Source: Bacteroidetes bacterium QS_8_68_15 (lineage in GTDB: Bacteria > Bacteroidota > Rhodothermia > Rhodothermales > Salinibacteraceae). From it: a stretch of DNA of 6,259 nt. The notes under the pieces are model-generated. The model made no database searches. It was given only the letters and a program-made list of their open reading frames with translations, and was not told where the DNA came from. Shown one piece after another: positions 1 through 6,259 of this stretch (within the stretch, counting starts at the first letter, position 1; each line of letters starts with the position of its first letter). The position numbers and the translations under genes were made by a program. Location of the stretch: positions 1 to 6,259 of the forward strand of contig PXTR01000139.1 in assembly GCA_003023245.1 (NCBI GenBank). Reading direction: 5' to 3'.

Positions 1-1
1 C

Positions 2-716
2 ACCCTCGGCCCGCTTGCGGCCACGCACGCCGAAAAGTACCGCCGCCCGTACGCCGACATTTTGCCCGAGACGCACTTCGTCCCCTTCGCCGACGCCGGC
101 GCCGTGGCCGAGGCGCTGGAAACAGGCGACGTAGGTGGTGTCATCCTCGAACCCATCCAGAGCATCGCCGGCGTGCGCGAGGCCCCGGCGGACTACCTGC
201 GCGAGGTGCGCGATCTGTGCGACGCCCACGGCGCGAAGCTCATCTTCGACGAAGTGCAGACCGGCGTCGGACGCACCGGCACCTTCTCGATCAGCCAGCA
301 GCTCGGCGTGACGCCCGACCTCATCACGATGGCCAAGAGCCTCGGCGCAGGCGTGCCCGTCAGCGCCGTGCTGGTGAACGAGCCCATCGCCGCGACCGTG
401 GAGTCGGGCGACCAGGGCTCGACCTTCGGCGGCGGGATGCTGGCGATGGCCGCCCTCGACGCTACGCTACGGACGCTCGACGAGGACGACCTGATGCCGC
501 GCGCCGCGGACCTGTTCGCGCAAATCGACGACACCCTCTCCTCGCACGAGACCGTGCGCGACGTACGCGGGCGCGGTTGCTTGGCCGGCGTGCAGCTTCA
601 TCCCCCCGCCGGCCCGGTGCGCGAGGCGCTCCGCGAGGAAGGCGTCCTCGTCGGCGGCGCCAACCCGCCGGACGTGCTGCGCCTCATGCCGCCACCGTGT
701 GCGAGAGGTAGCGTGA
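2..716 (+). CDS. argD: Acetylornithine aminotransferase, 5'-partial, with a frame break near its 3' end
   Basis: This is a PLP-dependent class III aminotransferase that transfers an amino group from glutamate to N-acetylglutamate semialdehyde, giving N-acetylornithine in the cytoplasm. The gene enters from the left edge, and the reading frame is open from base 2. Visible motifs are LIFDEVQTGVGRTG, whose Asp (codon 248-250) should contact the PLP pyridine nitrogen; AKSLGAGVP, whose Lys (codon 335-337) should be the Schiff-base lysine; and GSTFGGG, a phosphate-contact segment. Family similarity runs to VLRLMPP at about 694 and then stops abruptly. The uninterrupted frame continues to 805, but its tail is translated intergenic repeat. 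In another frame the sequence ends VREVA and stops at 714-716, exactly where the repeat array begins, as it does for three other genes here. I infer that about 20 C-terminal codons are missing at about 695-705. Identity is confident; the 3' end is inferred. Confidence 0.9.
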
Positions 717-864
717 TCCGTGAAACGTGGTGCGTGATGAAGCCGGCCCTCGTTGCTTCCAATGAACCCCTACCGGAATGCCATTCGGAACGGACCAACG
801 ATTGAATTCTCGTTCGGCGTACACCAATCAGCAACCTCACGCATCACGCATTACGAATCACGCT
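713..864. repeat. Intergenic element E1 with inverted heptamer arrays
   Basis: The left array at 713-740 has four 7-bp units: GTGATCC, GTGAAAC, GTGGTGC and GTGATGA. The right array at 837-864 has four units of the opposite strand: TCACGCA, TCACGCA, TTACGAA and TCACGCT. By eye about 20 of 25 aligned positions are complementary, so the arrays could form one long stem around a 96-nt core. The core contains the interrupted palindrome GAATGCCATTC (776-786), the motif CCAATCAG (824-831, shared with E2), GCAACCTCACG at its right edge (831-841, shared with E2) and TCCAATGAAC (758-767, close to TCCAATGCAC in E5). It lacks the CTAAAGGCACT-type segment of E2 and E3, so it may be an internally shortened copy. 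Confidence 0.8.
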
Positions 865-894
865 CCGCCCCAGCAGCCCTCCCGCGCCCAACCA

Positions 895-922
895 ACTCCA
901 AACCCCGGACCCCAAACCCGCA
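895..922. repeat. C-rich heptamer array (ACCCCRR type) before argF'
   Basis: Four 7-bp units lie in the leader of the carbamoyltransferase gene: ACTCCAA, ACCCCGG, ACCCCAA and ACCCGCA. Degenerate continuations reach about 936, just before the ATG at 939. The unit length matches the other intergenic arrays but the sequence does not, and I see no inverted partner (TTGGGGT) in this gap. No promoter or Shine-Dalgarno sequence is visible here. Confidence 0.5.
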
Positions 923-938
923 CAACCCGAAACCGCGA

Positions 939-1949
939 ATGTACGCGCTTACTCACTGGCCCGCCGTCTCGGACGAGGACTGGAACGCCCTGCGCGAGGC
1001 GGCGCGGCGCCACCGGCAGGCCGGCTCGACCTGGGCCGACGACGCGCACGGCCACAGCATCGGCCTCGTCTTTTTCAACCCGTCGCTGCGCACGCGCTGC
1101 TCGATGGAGTTGGCCGCCCACCAGCTCGGCGCGCACGCCACCACGCTGACGCCCGGCAGCGGAACGTGGGACTTCGCCTGGAAAGAGGGCGCCGTGATGG
1201 ACGGCCCCGAAGCCGAACATGTCCGCGACGCCTTCGGCGTTTTGTCGCGCTACTACGACGTCCTCGGCGTGCGCGCCTTCGCCTCCCTCTCCGACCGCGC
1301 GCAGGACGAGAGCGACGCGCTCATCCAGACGGTCGCCGACGCCGCGGACGTCCCCGTCGTCAACCTCGAATCGGCCCGCTACCACCCGTGCCAGGCCCTC
1401 GGCGACGCGACCGCACTGGCCGCGCATTTCGGCCAACGTGACCTCAGCGGAAAGCGCTTCGTGCTTTCGTGGACCCCGCACCCGAAGCCGCTCCCGCGCG
1501 CCGTCCCGCACTCGGCCCTCCTGATGGCCGCGCGCTGCGGGATGGACGTGACCGTCGCCCGGCCCGACGGCTTCGCCCTCGACGACGGCGTCATGGAGCA
1601 GGCGCGCACCTACGCCGACGCGAACGACAGCGCTCTCACCGAAAGCACCGACCCGGATGCCGCCTTCGACGAGGCCGACGTGATCTACGCCAAGTCGTGG
1701 GCGGGGAACGCCATTTACGAAACCCCCGACGCCGAGGCCGACCAGCGCGCCACCCGCGGCGACTGGACGATTTCGGCCGACCGCATGGGGCGCACGACCG
1801 ACGCCGCCGCCTTCATGCACTGCCTCCCGGTGCGCCGCAACGTCGTGGTCGACGACGCCGTGCTCGACGGCCCACAGTCCATTCCCCTCCCGCAGGCCGA
1901 GTGCCGCCTCCACGCGCAGAAGGCGATTCTGGAGCGCATGTTTTCGTGA
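939..1949 (+). CDS. argF': N-acetyl/N-succinyl-ornithine carbamoyltransferase (Bacteroidota type), intact
   Basis: This 336-residue cytoplasmic enzyme should transfer the carbamoyl group of carbamoyl phosphate to an N-acylated ornithine, giving acetyl- or succinyl-citrulline. Motifs in order are FFNPSLRTR (45-53, carbamoyl-phosphate site), HPCQ (149-152), the proline-rich loop HPKPLPRAVP (181-190), and HCLPVRR (294-300). The proline-rich loop and HCLPVRR are typical of the acylornithine branch, not of ordinary OTCase. From recalled family sequences, the residue before EH in the substrate loop is Glu92 in the Xanthomonas acetyl enzyme and Pro90 in the Bacteroides succinyl enzyme. Here it is Ala92 (codon 1212-1214), so the acyl group cannot be assigned. 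The frame is open upstream to 753, but that part is element E1 and array sequence; MYALTHW at 939 begins the conserved protein. No Shine-Dalgarno is seen. The TGA stop lies in the first unit of E2. The neighbouring argE fits deacylation after carbamoylation. Confidence 0.95.
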   Translation: MYALTHWPAVSDEDWNALREAARRHRQAGSTWADDAHGHSIGLVFFNPSLRTRCSMELAAHQLGAHATTLTPGSGTWDFAWKEGAVMDGPEAEHVRDAFGVLSRYYDVLGVRAFASLSDRAQDESDALIQTVADAADVPVVNLESARYHPCQALGDATALAAHFGQRDLSGKRFVLSWTPHPKPLPRAVPHSALLMAARCGMDVTVARPDGFALDDGVMEQARTYADANDSALTESTDPDAAFDEADVIYAKSWAGNAIYETPDAEADQRATRGDWTISADRMGRTTDAAAFMHCLPVRRNVVVDDAVLDGPQSIPLPQAECRLHAQKAILERMFS

Positions 1950-2157
1950 TGCGTGACACGTGATCCGTGACTGATGCTCATTCGACCCGTTTACGCTCTG
2001 CTGCGACCAGCGACGCCAATCAGAACACCCTAACGCTCGACTCTTTCTTCTTCCGCAGCGAAGCAACCTCACGCGCTGTGAGCGAAGCGAAGGGCCTTGT
2101 GTCATGCCCTTGTGGTACGAGTGCTTTTAGAGTGAATCACGCGTCACGAATCACGCC
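1946..2157. repeat. Intergenic element E2 with inverted heptamer arrays
   Basis: The left array at 1946-1973 has four units (GTGATGC, GTGACAC, GTGATCC, GTGACTG), and its first unit contains the argF' stop. The right array at 2137-2157 has three units (TCACGCG, TCACGAA, TCACGCC). About 18 of 21 positions are complementary. The 163-nt core reads as the same family as E3 but on the opposite strand: AGTGCTTTTAG (2120-2130) is the reverse complement of CTAAAAGCACT, compared with CTAAAGGCACT in E3. GCAACCTCACGCGC (2063-2076) matches GCAGCCTCACGCGC in E5. CCAATCAG at 2016-2023 is shared with E1. A small hairpin CTCAC/GTGAG lies at 2068-2082. This is the longest copy. I see no gene in it. Confidence 0.8.
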
Positions 2158-2197
2158 GGTCTTCCTAAAAGCAACTCCGCTCGCCCAACCCCCCTCG

Positions 2198-2906
2198 ATG
2201 ACTAACGAAAAACCCACCGTCGTCAAAGTCGGCGGGGCGGTGCTCGACGACGCGGACGCCGCCGATGCGCTCTGGCGGGGCATCGCCCAACTCCGCGACG
2301 AGGCGCCCGTCGCGCTGGTGCACGGCGGCGGGCGGCAGGCCACCGCGCTCGCCCCCCGGATGGGGGCGCGGGGCCCTCAGCACCCGCCTCGTCACCGATG
2401 CCGAGCAGCGCGGCGTCCCCGCCGTGGGCCTCTCCGGCGCGGACGGCGGCCTCCTGCGCGTCACCAAGCGCCCGCCGTGGAACGTCGACGGCGAAACGGT
2501 CGACTTCGGCTGGGTCGGCGACGTGGAACGCGTGAAGCCGGACGTGCTGCGGGCACTCCTGGAGGGCGGCTTCACGCCCGTCGTGGCTCCGCTCGGCGCC
2601 GACGCCGACGGGCAGGTCTACAACGTCAACGCTGATGCGGTCGCCTGCGCGCTCGCCTCGGCGCTCGACGCGTGCCGCCTGCTGCTCGTGACCGCCGCCG
2701 CGGGCGTCGACCGCGCGGACGGCACGCGCCTGCCCCGCTGCGACGCGCAAATTTTCGAAGACGGCGTCGCGAACGGCTGGATTCGCGGCGGGATGCGCGT
2801 GAAAGTGCACACCGCCCTGAACGCCCTCGGCGACGGGGTGGACGAGGCGTTTGTCCTCGGTCCCGACGACCTGGTGGCGCGCGAGGCGGGGACGCGGATT
2901 GCGTGA
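2198..2906 (+). pseudogene. argB: Acetylglutamate kinase, frame broken by an internal gap
   Basis: ArgB phosphorylates N-acetylglutamate with ATP, the committed step of arginine synthesis. Two frames encode its parts. Residues 1-56 (2198-2365) contain KVGG (10-13) and the glycine-rich VHGGG (41-45) and run to LAPRMG. From 2367 a second frame reads RGALSTRLV, then AVGLSGADGGLL, the acetylglutamate-site motif YNVNADAVA, VTAAAGVD and GGMRVKVHTAL, ending GTRIA. Between LAPRMG and RGALST the family normally has about 25 residues, including the conserved (V)xGxRVT segment; these are absent. The missing length must be 2 modulo 3, for example 74 or 77 bp. A CCCCC-GGAT-GGGGG hairpin (2353-2366) sits at the join. 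The two parts total 235 residues, against about 260 expected. The start is ATG 2198, because sequence upstream is repeat. There is no N-terminal helical extension before KVGG, so the arginine-feedback helix of sensitive ArgBs seems absent. As read, no functional kinase would be made. Confidence 0.9.
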
Positions 2907-3091
2907 TGCGCGTTGCGTGATGCAACCTAAAGGCACTTCTTCACTGCGTTCAGGGCGCGTGATTGCAGCCAGCCCGATACGCTCGCGCTCCGACTCTGCC
3001 GGTGGGAACCAGTCAGAAAGCGCAGACGCCTGACCACCTTTTCGGCTTCCGAAGGAGACCACCTCACGAATCACGCATTACGCATCACGTT
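2903..3091. repeat. Intergenic element E3 with inverted heptamer arrays, core in opposite orientation
   Basis: The left array at 2903-2923 has three units (GTGATGC, GCGTTGC, GTGATGC) and contains the argB stop. The right array at 3064-3091 has four (TCACGAA, TCACGCA, TTACGCA, TCACGTT) and ends 6 nt before the argE ATG. About 17 of 21 positions pair. Read on the plus strand, the core has CTAAAGGCACT (2927-2937), then GCACTTCTTC (2933-2942), a 12-nt gap and GCGCGTGA (2955-2962). The minus strand of E5 has GTACTTCCTC, also a 12-nt gap, and GCGCGTGA, which indicates a common origin with inverted orientation. A short hairpin TTCGG-CTT-CCGAA lies at 3041-3053. Confidence 0.8.
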
Positions 3092-3097
3092 CGTCTC

Positions 3098-4222
3098 ATG
3101 CCACCCCAAGTCGTTTCCGAACCCGATGCGGTCGCCCTGCTGAAAGCCCTCGTCGGCTTTCGGTCTCTCAGCGGCGAAGAAGGCCCCGTCGCCGACTTTG
3201 TCGAGGAGTACGTCCGCTCTGCCGATCTCCCCGTCGCCGTGGGGCGCGTGGACGACAACGTGTATTTCTCGCTCGGGGACGACGACGCCGGGAGCGATGC
3301 GGACCGGCTCTTGCTGTGCTCACACCTGGACGTGGTGCCCCCCTCGTCGGATCATCCGTACGACCCGTTCACGCCCACCGAGACGAGCGGCCGGCTCTAC
3401 GGGCGCGGCGCCGTCGACGCCAAAGCCAGCGGCGCCGCCATGACGACGGCCCTCCTCTCACTCGCCCGCGACGACTGGACGCCCGGCCGCGACGGCCGCG
3501 CCGGGCAACTCATCGTCGCGCTCACCACGCACGAAGAAACCGGCGGCGCGTACAACGGCCTCCAGACGCTCCGCCCCCATCTGCCGACCCTCAGCGCCGC
3601 CGTCGTCGGCGAGCCGACGCAGCTTCAGCCCTGCGTGGCGCAGAAGGGACTGCTCATCCTCGAAGCCTGGGCCCACGGGCAGACGGCCCACGCCGCGCGC
3701 GCTCCCCTCGGCGACAACGCCATCGTGCGCGCCGCCCGCGACATCGAACGCCTCCAGTCCTTTTCCCTCGACCGCGAAGACCCGTTCCTCGGCGCGCCCA
3801 CCATCAACGTCACCACCGTCGAGGGCGGCTCCGCGCGCAACGTGATCCCCGACCGCTGCACCTTCACCCTCGACATCCGCTCCACGCCCGCCTACACCCA
3901 CGACGAAATCACCGCCGAGGTCGACGCGCTGCTCGAATCGGAGGTCGCTGTGCGCTCGAAGCGCCTCGTGCCGGCGAGCACCGCGCCCGAAGCGCGCATC
4001 GTGGAGGCCGCCCGCGCAGCGCTTCCCGCCGGCGCGGAACCGTTCGGCTCACCGACCGCTTCGGACTGGATCTTTCTCAACGACGTGCCGGCCGTCAAGC
4101 TGGGACCGGGCGAAAGCAGCCGCTCCCACACGGCCGAGGAGCACATTCGCCTCGCCGCGGTGGAACGCGCGGCGGAGGGGTATGCTGATCTGGCAAAAGC
4201 ATACTTCGGTAACCAATCGTAG
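3098..4222 (+). CDS. argE: M20-family acetylornithine/N-acetylcitrulline deacetylase, intact
   Basis: This 374-residue dinuclear-metal amidohydrolase (ArgE/DapE family) removes the acyl group from an arginine intermediate. Next to an acylornithine carbamoyltransferase, the expected substrate is N-acetylcitrulline, giving citrulline (inference from context). Expected metal and catalytic residues are present: SHLDVV (His76, Asp78), GRGAVDAKA with bridging Asp107, THEETGG with general base Glu146 and ligand Glu147, VGEPT with Glu172, and C-terminal SHTAEEH with ligand His344. HGQTAHAAR (193-201) is the usual dimerization-domain segment with its conserved His. Length is normal and the frame is unbroken. 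The start is ATG 3098, 6 nt after the E3 right array; the longer frame from 2963 translates repeat sequence. No Shine-Dalgarno is visible. The stop here is TAG, and it is the only stop in the operon that is not inside a heptamer unit. A DapE-like substrate cannot be excluded from sequence alone. Confidence 0.9.
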   Translation: MPPQVVSEPDAVALLKALVGFRSLSGEEGPVADFVEEYVRSADLPVAVGRVDDNVYFSLGDDDAGSDADRLLLCSHLDVVPPSSDHPYDPFTPTETSGRLYGRGAVDAKASGAAMTTALLSLARDDWTPGRDGRAGQLIVALTTHEETGGAYNGLQTLRPHLPTLSAAVVGEPTQLQPCVAQKGLLILEAWAHGQTAHAARAPLGDNAIVRAARDIERLQSFSLDREDPFLGAPTINVTTVEGGSARNVIPDRCTFTLDIRSTPAYTHDEITAEVDALLESEVAVRSKRLVPASTAPEARIVEAARAALPAGAEPFGSPTASDWIFLNDVPAVKLGPGESSRSHTAEEHIRLAAVERAAEGYADLAKAYFGNQS

Positions 4223-4247
4223 CTCGTCCGCCTGGGTTCGATCACTC

Positions 4248-4327
4248 GATGGGAGATGGTCTGGCTTGACTGACGACGCCTGCGGAGCGAGAACCATCCA
4301 CTATCTACCATTCACCGTCTACCCGCT
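4248..4327. repeat. Intergenic element E4: inverted arrays of a different heptamer
   Basis: The argE-argH gap repeats the architecture of E1, E2, E3 and E5 with another unit. The left side at 4248-4261 has two units, GATGGGA and GATGGTC. The right side at 4293-4327 has ACCATCC, ACTATCT, ACCATTC, ACCGTCT and ACCCGCT, ending 2 nt before the argH ATG. AGATGGT at 4254-4260 is the exact reverse complement of the right-hand consensus ACCATCT. The core is only 31 nt. Unlike the other elements, the left array begins 25 nt after the stop codon and does not include it. Confidence 0.65.
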
Positions 4328-4329
4328 CC

Positions 4330-5612
4330 ATGCCCTCTGACCGGCAACGCCTCCTCTGGCAAAAAAGCGCCCCCGGCGACGGCGACGACTGGACCACCCG
4401 ATTTACCGTCGGCGACGACTATCGCTGGGACACGATGCTGTTGCCGTATGACATTCGCGCCACGCGAGCGCACGCCTGGGCGCTGGCTGAAACGGGCGTG
4501 CTCACCGCAGAGGAACGCGCGCAGATCGAAGACGCGCTCGACGGGCTGGGAAACGCGGTCGAAGACGGAACCGTCACCGTCGCGCCGGCGGACGAGGACT
4601 GCCACACCGTTATCGAGCGTTTTCTCACCGATCGGCTGGGCGAGACGGGCGAAAAGATTCACGCCGGACGCTCGCGCAACGACCAGGTGCTCGTGGCCGT
4701 GCGGATGTTTCTGCGCGACAAGTTGCGCGCCCTCGGGCGGCAGACGGCCGCCGCCGCCGAGGCGCTCTGCGCGCTGGGCGAACGCTACTCGGGCGCCCTG
4801 ATGCCCGGGTACACGCACCTTCAGCGTGCCATGCCCACCACCGCCGGCCTCTGGGCGCTGGGCCACGCGGAGGTCCTCGCCGCCGACCTCGACACGCTGC
4901 GCCACGCCGAGCGACGGGTCAACGTCTCTCCCTACGGCAGCGCCGCCGGCTACGGCGTGCCGCACCTCGACCTCCCGCGCCGCGCGGTGGCCGAGCGGCT
5001 GGGCTTCCGCGCCGTGCAGACGCACGCTCCCGCCGTGCAGCTCACCCGCGGCAAAATCGAACTCGCCACCGTCCACGCCCTCGTGCAAGTCGCCGGCGCC
5101 GTCAACCGCTTCGCCGCCGACCTGTCGCTCTTCACGACCGCCGAGTTCGCCTTCGCCGACCTGCCCGACGCCCTGACGACCGGCAGCAGCATCATGCCGC
5201 AGAAGCGCAACCCCGACGTGGCCGAGATCGCCCGCGCCACCTACCACCCTCCGGCTACCACCGCGACCTCCAGTTCACCAAAGCCGCCGCCATGAAGAGC
5301 GCCTTGATGACCGAAGACCTGCTCGAAGCCGCCCGCCGCCTCGCCGAGGGCCTCCGCTTCGACCGCGAGGCGATGCGCGCGGCCTGCTCGCCCGAGCTCT
5401 TCGCCACCGCCGCGGCGATGGAGCGCGTCGCCGAGGGCGTGCCCTTCCGCGCCGCCTACCACGAGGTCGGCAGTGCGCTCGACACGCTCGCCGGCGCGCC
5501 CGACGCCGACACCGCCCTCGCCGCCTACCGCACCGACGGCCCCCCCGGCCAGGGCCGCCCCGACCTCGTTCGCGAGCGCCTCGCCGAGCACGACGGGTGG
5601 ATGGAAGCGTGA
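4330..5612 (+). pseudogene. argH: Argininosuccinate lyase, frame broken by an internal gap
   Basis: ArgH cleaves argininosuccinate to arginine and fumarate, the last step of the pathway; it is a homotetramer of the fumarase/aspartase superfamily. The first frame (4330 to about 5241) carries HAGRSRNDQ (111-119), the THLQRAMPT catalytic-His segment (162-170), the SAAGYG segment, and the family signature GSSIMPQKRNPD (285-296). It runs to EIARAT and then reads out of frame to a stop at 5295. A second frame from 5241 to 5612 continues LPPSGYHRDLQFTKAAAMKS and the normal C-terminal domain (SPELFATAAAMERVAEGVPFR). Comparison with the usual spacing between NPD and LPxxYxxD suggests about 17 residues are missing; the gap must be 1 modulo 3, for example 49 or 52 bp. 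CTACCAC occurs on both sides of the join. The restored protein would be about 440 residues, normal for the family. The TGA stop lies in the first unit of E5. The start at ATG 4330 abuts the E4 array. Confidence 0.92.
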
Positions 5613-5805
5613 TTCGTGACGCGTGATTCGTGATGACAACAGTCCAATGCACCTGCGTCTCGAAGCGACTGGCAGAAGCCTGTCCGAATGCACCGTCGCC
5701 CGAATGTTCTTTCAGCCCCCGCCAGCGGGCAGCCTCACGCGCCCCGACCAACGGGAGGAAGTACTCTCCGGGGTGCATCACGCAATACGCATCACGCAAC
5801 ACGAA
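5609..5805. repeat. Intergenic element E5 with inverted heptamer arrays
   Basis: The left array at 5609-5636 has four units (GTGATTC, GTGACGC, GTGATTC, GTGATGA) and contains the argH stop. The right array at 5778-5805 has four (TCACGCA, ATACGCA, TCACGCA, ACACGAA). About 20 of 25 positions pair. The 141-nt core holds GCAGCCTCACGCGC (5729-5742, as in E2), GAGGAAGTAC (5755-5764, the reverse complement of an E3-like motif at identical spacing), and TCCAATGCAC (5643-5652) followed by CCGAATGC (5684-5691), as in E1. Small open frames inside are repeat sequence and show no recognisable protein. Confidence 0.8.
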
Positions 5806-5896
5806 ACACTCTTGACAAACGCTTAACGATCCTCGCCCGAACAATCTCTCGTCGGCTGACATACGTTGTACCGATATGAAACGATGTTGATGCTGA

Positions 5897-6037
5897 CATT
5901 CATCCGGAAGGGTGGAGGGAGCAGGCCCTCTGAAGCCCTGGCAACCGCTCTTGCTGCTGTGCGGCCTCGCGCCGCGCTGGTCAGACAGAGAGAAAGGTGC
6001 TACCTCCTGCCTCGCAGCCCGCGAGGGAAGATGAATG
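5897..6037 (+). ncRNA. SAM-I (S-box) riboswitch aptamer
   Basis: The conserved SAM-I core is readable in order. P1 is a perfect 8-bp helix, CATTCATC (5897-5904) with GATGAATG (6030-6037). GGAGGGA (5914-5920), GGCCC (5924-5928) and TGAAGCCC followed by GGCAACC (5931-5946) form P2, its kink-turn and the pseudoknot loop. P3 spans about 5946-5993 with an internal GCGGC/GCCGC stem. GGTGCTACCTCC (5996-6007) is the J3/4 segment. P4 is CCTCGC/GCGAGG (6010-6026), followed by AGATGA. SAM-I RNAs bind S-adenosylmethionine and usually shut off methionine, cysteine or SAM synthesis genes. The controlled gene must lie to the right, beyond the window. The aptamer is separate from the arg operon. Confidence 0.93.
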
Positions 6038-6047
6038 GGAAGAAGCC

Positions 6048-6075
6048 CCAGCGCGTCGCCGCTGTGCACGCCTGG
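6048..6075 (+). promoter_or_regulatory. Hairpin between aptamer and terminator (expression platform)
   Basis: CCAG-C-GCGT (6048-6056) pairs with ACGC-CTGG (6068-6075) over eight base pairs with one bulged C and an 11-nt loop. It lies between P1 of the riboswitch and the terminator. Its role is not clear; it may be a spacer helix of the expression platform. Confidence 0.5.
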
Positions 6076-6095
6076 ATGCTTTCGTCCCCTTCTAC

Positions 6096-6126
6096 GCCCC
6101 TCTGACGGCTGGGAGGGGCCTTTTTT
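6096..6126 (+). terminator. Rho-independent terminator, probably SAM-controlled
   Basis: GCCCCTC (6096-6102) pairs perfectly with GAGGGGC (6113-6119) around a 10-nt loop. The stem is followed by one C and six T (6121-6126). Its position about 60 nt after the aptamer fits a transcription-attenuation platform, in which SAM binding favours this terminator. I could not identify a convincing antiterminator by eye. Confidence 0.85.
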
Positions 6127-6129
6127 ATG

Positions 6130-6188
6130 GCGCGTCCTTTCGAATCGAAAGACGCGCGCGCCGGTCCTCTCCCCGCCTCGTCAGGCGG
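6130..6188 (+). promoter_or_regulatory. Two further hairpins downstream of the terminator
   Basis: GCGCGTCCTTTCGA (6130-6143) and TCGAAAGACGCGC (6145-6157) form a 13-bp inverted repeat with one extra C on the left arm. CCGCCT (6173-6178) and AGGCGG (6183-6188) form a perfect 6-bp stem with loop CGTC. Both lie in the leader of the unseen downstream gene. Neither is followed by a T tract, so they are not simple terminators. The rest to 6259 shows no coding region I can defend. Confidence 0.55.
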
Positions 6189-6259
6189 AATCGGTCGTCC
6201 TCACGCGGCGACCGCGCCCGCACCTCTCGCTGCTGTACTGGCGCCTCTTCTGGATGGAT

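Follow-up and report, generated by a model that had tools for sequence, protein, structure and literature searches.

Copies of one heptad-armed, probably mobile element occupy the gaps of an arginine gene cluster in Bacteroidetes bacterium QS_8_68_15

The window analyzed here is the whole stretch of 6,259 nucleotides at positions 1 to 6,259 (forward strand) of contig PXTR01000139.1 from Bacteroidetes bacterium QS_8_68_15 (GenBank assembly GCA_003023245.1), and it holds an arginine gene cluster with inverted pairs of 7-bp repeat arrays in its gaps. What are these paired arrays, and how did they come to lie behind one gene after another? A preliminary description had taken four of them, named E1, E2, E3 and E5, for members of a dispersed family. 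Here, we describe E1, E2, E3 and E5 as copies of one element, in which an oriented core of ~110 nt (core A) lies between inverted CGTGATN arrays. With a probability of about two in three, we read them as old, short, non-autonomous mobile elements with a non-coding core, similar to miniature inverted-repeat transposable elements (MITEs) or to REPINs, the paired form of repetitive extragenic palindromic sequences (REPs).

All four elements are placed on the plus strand. E1 (712..862) is a pure A element with arms of four units each (left 712-739, right 835-862) and a core at ~733-841 that includes the innermost units. E2 (1945..2155) has four units on the left (1945-1972), three on the right (2135-2155) and a core at ~1966-2073, and E5 (5608..5803) has four units at either end (5608-5635 and 5776-5803) with a core at ~5629-5739. 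The arm pairs first reported hold for all four elements, at the coordinates given and in strict 7-bp phase, with one correction for E3. E3 (2901..3089) has a four-unit right arm (3062-3089), a core at 2958-3068 and a left arm (2901-2923) that is degenerate, with two good units and one broken unit when read by eye, and for this reason it is absent from the arrays listed by script. A profile of core A (110 positions; cut-off E ≤0.01) scores E5 at 71, E1 at 66, E3 at 57 and E2 at 55 bits.

Copies outside the operon, as a dispersed family implies, are plentiful in the nearest relative, G001 (metagenome-assembled genome [MAG] Bacteroidetes bacterium SW_4_67_19, contig PXTX01000118.1, ~1.9 Mb; argF 88% identical to the window), which is rich in both the array pattern and core A. 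The G001 sample comprised 951 kb in 80 stretches, picked partly for array-bearing contigs, and that of G003, the closest other genome by argF (74%), comprised 735 kb in 52 stretches, 12 of these picked for core matches; rates per Mb are therefore not those of random samples. The core-A profile yielded 57 matches, with 52 in the G001 stretches (33 near full length), four in the window and one in L001, the arg locus of G001, which was counted apart. The element is thus short, multicopy and bounded by inverted ends, which fits a MITE-like or REP-like reading, as had been proposed. Mean pairwise identity of core A is 56% in a MAFFT alignment of 35 copies, and pairwise global alignment of 33 G001 copies gives a mean of 66% and a best pair of 78%. 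The core appears to be non-coding, as no sign of coding was seen, without a dedicated coding test. Among 60 genomes, a sequence-only model found core A repeated in G001 (at least 58 matches), G003 (14), G009 (11) and G002 (8) only, with a single marginal match in each of eight further genomes (E 1.8e-4 to 0.008).

The heptad arrays are not chance. Arrays of at least three units number 76 in the G001 sample and 0 in the reversed sequence, and the pattern CGTGATNCGTGANNCGTGAT (≤2 mismatches) occurs at 129 + 127 places, while the pattern read backwards occurs at 0 + 1. Unit frequencies by position are C 0.94, G 0.97, T 0.92, G/A 0.76/0.23, A/T 0.67/0.21, T 0.73 and G/T 0.68/0.22 for 144 non-innermost arm units of 28 elements, with the detection rule itself biased toward the first five positions. 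A script for inverted-array pairs, run on the G001 stretches, the window and L001, returned 38 entries, a few of them overlapping or spurious, and inspection of these showed homology of the DNA enclosed by the arms. The CGTGATN array pattern was matched in 38 of the 60 genomes, in three of them more than 100 times per strand, and the backward control also matches in some genomes, up to 45 times.

The cause of the uneven core lengths first reported (96-163 nt) had gone unseen: a smaller repeat, B, nested in an arm accounts for the greater length of E2, E3 and E5 relative to E1. A profile of B (118 positions; E ≤0.01) has 33 matches, 32 in the 951 kb of G001 and one in the window, nested in the right arm of E2 (2061..2147, minus strand, 64 bits), and none in 735 kb of G003. 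The L001 gap that matches E2 holds only a short B-like remnant by eye. Two further pieces in the window are called by eye and are not among the profile matches: a B-like piece in E3 (~2923-2957), seen by comparison with G001 copies, and a short B-like repeat in the right arm of E5 (5740..5775, minus strand), assigned from its ends GCACCCC...GGGGCGC and from similar G001 copies. B ends read GC[A/G]CCCC...GGGGCGC or similar, and B occurs inside CGTGATN arms and, by eye, inside other tandem arrays. Presence and absence of B can be compared directly at one site: the E5 ortholog in G001 (L052) keeps the core, and its right arm runs without a break across the point at which the short B lies in the window. 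As a target-site duplication for B, the alignment is compatible, by eye, with either a 2-bp GC repeat or none. In G046, an insert with ends like TGCCAAATCCGG and CAACTCCGGTT (L329, L333) sits within the heptad array of one copy of a different element, and a second copy has it in the opposite arm and in reverse orientation; it is unrelated to B. From B in the E5 arm and the G046 insert in arrays, arms therefore appear to be favored landing sites.

Element sites turn over. When syntenic arg loci were compared for empty sites, the arg gaps of G003 were found to be 44, 60 and ≤46 bp and to have no arrays. Of 49 relatives with argF, the arg loci of 30 were compared: core A was found only in that of G001, and arrays of at least three CGTRW units only in those of G001, G004 (L118) and G022 (L123). 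For 92 gene pairs conserved between G001 and G003, the core is present in G001 only at four, in both at one and in G003 only at one. Eight core matches of G003, G002 and G009 could be placed by their flanks in G001 stretches; the core is also present in G001 at five of these (both flanks for L204, L207 and L215; one firm flank, hence tentative, for L208 and L209), and G001 has no core at the other three (L210, L218, L219). In the pairs L204/L103 and L207/L056, the array starts, by eye, at the same point after terminator-like sequence. Arm length differs at two orthologous sites in the window and G001: the E1 ortholog in L001 has eight left units vs four in the window, with a core 98% identical, and the E5 ortholog (L052:5051-5161, minus strand) has two left units vs four, with a core 91% identical. 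The 98% of E1 is less telling because the first 300 nt of the window's argD are equally alike, which suggests recombination.

In position, the elements follow genes. None of the 52 core-A matches in G001 lies wholly inside a predicted gene, though 82% of the sequence is predicted to be coding; a single match reaches 79 nt into the end of a gene. Their contexts are tandem (35), convergent (6), divergent (2) and contig ends (9), with divergent gaps below expectation (p = 0.001 by length, p = 0.03 by count). For the 39 tandem cases (35 in G001, three in the window and one in L001), the median distance is 10 nt from stop to element and 80 nt from element to next start; 27 are nearer the stop, 14 overlap the end of the upstream gene and one overlaps a start. 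For the two largest overlaps, 94 nt (E1, with the broken argD of the window) and 79 nt (L043), the gene ends were probably mispredicted. The window's argF, argB and argH have their TGA stops in the first arm unit of E2, E3 and E5, respectively, and the argD of L001 ends likewise; elsewhere the stop falls in unit 1 or 2, and once further out. Among arms of at least three units in the 28 elements with both ends, 10 of 19 left arms and 13 of 21 right arms have stops in all three frames (shuffled, 2.5% and 3.9%). Stops reading NCGTGA or NCCTGA stand at 102:27 in G001 and 59:31 in G003 (82:27 and 55:31 once array-followed stops are removed), and the NCG:NCC ratio inside genes is 0.96 and 0.98, respectively. 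CGTGA at stops, common in both genomes, may be a target, an array seed or a relic.

Elements behind genes might also be selected as intercistronic RNA hairpins, whose arms pair in the transcript and steer mRNA ends or processing, and selected RNA stems had been the other reading offered at first. We consider this quite improbable. E1 folds at -50.8 kcal/mol (z -3.5), though mirrored arms guarantee such folding, and the innermost units of the two arms do agree (G/G 23, A/A 4 and A/G 1 of 28 elements), with A-left elements no closer to each other in the core than to the rest. Arm covariation as proof of RNA pairing was rejected, as only the innermost unit agrees and whole arms match no significantly better within than between elements (p = 0.07, 12 elements). 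RNAalifold gives only five innermost pairs and no core structure, the same operon in G003 has no arrays, and core orientation to the tandem genes is mixed, with 23 parallel and 16 antiparallel. An oriented riboswitch or attenuator was also rejected, both on this mixed orientation and on the Rfam result: at E ≤1 the elements themselves have no Rfam match, and in the window only an S-adenosylmethionine (SAM) riboswitch matches.

Heptads of other sequence are also present. The argE-argH gap (4223..4329, plus strand), the fifth gap, carries another heptad family in mirrored layout, with GATGGGAGATGGTC on the left and ACCATCCACTATCTACCATTCACCGTCTACC on the right (ACCATCC type), and has no core-A profile match. 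Imperfect AAACCCC-type heptads at 880-930, just downstream of E1, make a third family. By eye, further mirrored arrays occur in the arg gaps of relatives, such as CGTGATA/CGTGAGG in G022 and, in G004, octads of the GTNTGGGN type, and in L125 and L130 the argB-argE gap has a 14-bp unit, TGATGCGTGAATTG, right after the argB stop, with a copy number that differs between both.

Across 157 kb of G001 intergenic DNA, tandem periodicity is found at 84 places for period 7, 71 for 14, 28 for 8, 26 for 16 and 17 for 15, and no other period between 4 and 13 exceeds four places. At period 7, 50 of the 84 places remain once CGTRW arrays are cut out, and 774 kb of G001 coding DNA has 12 places at this period. 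Arrays of other units are often mirrored by an inverted array within one gap: in G001, this holds for 14 of the 52 with period 7 and for 9 of the 33 with period 8, against ~3-4% in the control, and in G003 for 6 of 18 with period 7 (control 1.9%). These counts may include both arms of a pair. A Salinibacter plasmid (5 kb) has one place at period 8 and two at period 15.

These figures favor an account in which a lineage mutational process makes 7-/8-bp intergenic arrays, often mirrored, with CGTGATN the commonest, while A and B are passengers exchanged by recombination. CGTGATN arrays surrounding a different element in G046, with another insert inside an array, point the same way: most G046 array loci share a separate element that surrounds the arrays, and 13 array-chosen loci of G046 and G032 had no match to core A or B at E ≤1. 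An E. coli K-12 sample has none at periods 7 or 8, but this sample is small: of 200 kb, 21 kb counted as non-coding, by the absence of long open reading frames and thus by another definition than in G001. We hold this account to be unlikely. Alone it does not explain dozens of copies with a common ~110-nt core and inverted arms. Arrays can also have a direct partner within one gap (CGTRW 13 of 42, with inverted partners at 16 of 42; 7 of 52 and 3 of 33 for the other units at periods 7 and 8), none of the five period-8 arrays of G003 is mirrored, and the G003 spectrum, weaker than that of G001, has fewer places at periods 7 and 8 (16 and 8) than at periods 14-16 (28, 18 and 23). Arrays also do not automatically come paired, because in viral contigs only 1 of 70 CGTRW arrays has an inverted partner within 350 bp. 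In a mixed account, possible though rather doubtful, the lineage process would still be active and would build mirrored 7-/8-bp arrays of many units after genes, and these would serve as standing docking sites where cassettes are inserted and swapped. The cassettes would be core A in the G001 clade, different cores in G046 and in G032, and repeats like B, so that sites outlive their contents.

Several candidate carriers and relatives of the element were set aside. CGTGATN arrays occur in 56 viral-contig stretches (IMG/VR, L262-L317) without core A or B at E ≤0.01, and phage carriage was rejected. A ~700-bp candidate for an autonomous element in L048, with arrays at both ends, encloses by eye a PII-like gene and not a transposase. 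A plasmid search with the whole window returned 147 records, all of 60-80% identity, and five among the matches listed are arg-type or aminotransferase genes.

The reading as mobile elements must be weighed against a number of observations. No mover was found in a search that covered only the Y1 transposase (PF01797) and reverse transcriptase (PF00078) families and did not extend to DDE, tyrosine or serine recombinase families. PF01797 has no match in G001, G002, G003, G014 or G022, although MAGs may be incomplete, and PF00078, sought in eight genomes, is absent from G001, G002, G003, G009, G022, G046 and G023 and present in G014. All genomes are MAGs, and gene ends come from a simple purpose-made gene finder. 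The A family is old, with no recent burst seen, because the G001 copies average 66% identity and reach 78% at best. Filled and empty sites for A do not form a clean pair, as the empty sites of G003 are not alignable at base level. At the five common sites, several cores are partial, and the identity between cores (0.52-0.59) does not exceed the paralog mean of 0.656, a result that would not be predicted for an insertion simply inherited; the cores may have been exchanged, insertion may have recurred, or they may be saturated by neutral change. Among the 76 G001 arrays, 43 are near A, 7 near B only and 26 near neither. These last two results are also ones that the array-making process would lead one to expect. 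For five of the 23 B matches that score above 39 bits, the midpoint falls within a predicted gene. Stops are found in unit 2 as well, so that insertion precisely at the native stop is not the rule. Finally, the E5 core is conserved between the window and G001 at 91/101 positions vs 327/405 for argH third positions (p = 0.027), which hints at function and would suit selected hairpins; other intergenic DNA nearby is conserved at 72/87 and 166/202 and the SAM riboswitch at 133/141.

The search for a mover bears directly on whether these are REPINs moved by a REP-associated tyrosine transposase (RAYT) of the Y1 type. An inverted pair with a spacer, intergenic and mostly downstream of genes, is shared with REPINs in what is accessible of two reports (PMC3116915, PMC3733652), and Y1 matches occur in 25 of the 60 genomes, including the array-rich G023, G046, G010, G026, G032 and G008. 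Against it, Y1 is missing from the core-A carriers G001-G003 and the array-rich G014 and G022 (G009, also a carrier, has one match), and the arms consist of 7-bp arrays whose unit is no palindrome. We give this explanation next to no weight. A retroelement as mover was rejected on the absence of PF00078 from G001.

For the mobile elements that we favor, a trans-acting recombinase would have inserted copies close behind genes, perhaps with a preference for sites already reading CGTGA, such as ...GCG-TGA stop codons. Arms read CGTGA or CGTAA from either side and thus often supply stop codons, which makes insertion at gene ends cheap. The arms would then lengthen and shorten, probably by slippage, and may act as landing sites for the second small repeat B.

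The setting of the elements is an arginine gene cluster, all on the plus strand, with gene names that are in part putative: the end of argD, an argF-type carbamoyltransferase gene, argB, argE and argH, followed by the SAM riboswitch. The 3' part of argD (acetylornithine/succinylornithine aminotransferase family) spans 2..711 and matches residues 87-317 of 343 of the L001 argD at 92% amino acid identity (tblastn); its C-terminus is damaged relative to G001, with 59 nt present in L001 absent from the window between two common anchors (near 693). The argF-type gene lies at 939..1949. The argB gene (acetylglutamate kinase; 2198..2906) has a frame broken near 2365, with tblastn pieces covering 1-56 and 81-259 of 259 residues, and has no counterpart of ~72 nt that G001 has. 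In L001 (3124-3240), the argB stop reads GCGTGA with no array, a candidate empty site, and argB is followed by what is by eye a holA-like gene, not argE. An argE-like deacetylase gene (3098..4222), presumably argE from sequence comparison and gene order, precedes argH (argininosuccinate lyase; 4330..5612), whose frame is broken near 5245 and which has no counterpart of ~49 nt of G001. The missing stretches in argD, argB and argH may be assembly collapse or real decay. The SAM riboswitch (RF00162, 5897-6037; Rfam, 80.1 bits) is directly downstream of E5.

Heptad arrays with small embedded elements, resembling arms with nested B, are familiar from Nostoc, where short tandemly repeated repetitive (STRR) heptads accompany small dispersed repeats (SDRs), families of 21-27 nt with a common hairpin that are embedded in heptad arrays; sizes and sequences probably differ from those here. 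B is longer than SDRs, with a profile of 118 positions and short forms of ~35 nt. Three consecutive G do not occur in the consensus unit, CGTGATG, which therefore has none of the G-tracts of a G-quadruplex. Heptads of the sequences GGGAATC in Xanthomonas and GGGGA(C/T)T in Nostoc have been described (Rehm et al., 2015; PMC4692102), and in the portion of that report available two Xanthomonas species have 70 and 75 convergent pairs of heptad arrays, which lie closer to the gene upstream and are scarce in divergent gaps. The layout of convergent pairs behind genes is therefore not new, and the earlier statement that no family with paired inverted heptad arrays had been described does not hold. 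Like the Xanthomonas heptads as presented there, those here are degenerate 7-bp units, mostly in arrays of four, that lie between genes, close behind the upstream one, and are rare in divergent gaps, with convergent pairs and lengths that vary between relatives; unlike them, they have a ~110-nt conserved core between the arms and a nested repeat, and no shared core is reported in that portion of the source (PMC4692102).

Other known systems share some of these features. Like REPINs and REPs as outlined in the accessible text of two studies, the elements are inverted pairs with a spacer, in many copies, outside genes, mainly downstream and probably non-autonomous (PMC3116915, PMC3733652), but as arms they have tandem 7-bp arrays in place of a single palindrome tagged GTAG or CGTC (PMC3733652), and G001, unlike REPIN/RAYT systems, has no Y1 transposase match. 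The BrickBuilt MITE of Porphyromonas gingivalis is likewise intergenic, multicopy and contains tandem repeats; as far as the accessible sections describe it, a 23-nt array lies between leader and tail and the inverted ends are small, whereas here the 7-bp arrays are the inverted ends (PMC4596501). TAACTGA direct repeats, known from Beggiatoaceae, cyanobacteria and some Bacteroidetes, are also mostly intergenic heptad arrays bearing stop codons, but the sections consulted count 169 direct sets and one inverted case in the genome studied, and describe no shared core (PMC4679880). No report of core A or of arms as landing sites was found in the open-licence literature, where an earlier one is possible. 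As far as searched, the common core, the use of arms as landing sites, the occurrence of this heptad around different cores in relatives, and the 7-/8-bp intergenic periodicity are new.

Heptad repeats are over-represented in many bacterial genomes with no accepted cause, and their role remains to be elucidated according to the consulted part of the Xanthomonas study (PMC4692102). Here, heptads are the ends of a multicopy element with a recognizable core, vary in length between orthologs and receive other elements. Consequently, two ideas become testable in one lineage: that heptad pairs are the ends of mobile elements, or that a 7-/8-bp process makes them and mobile elements use them.

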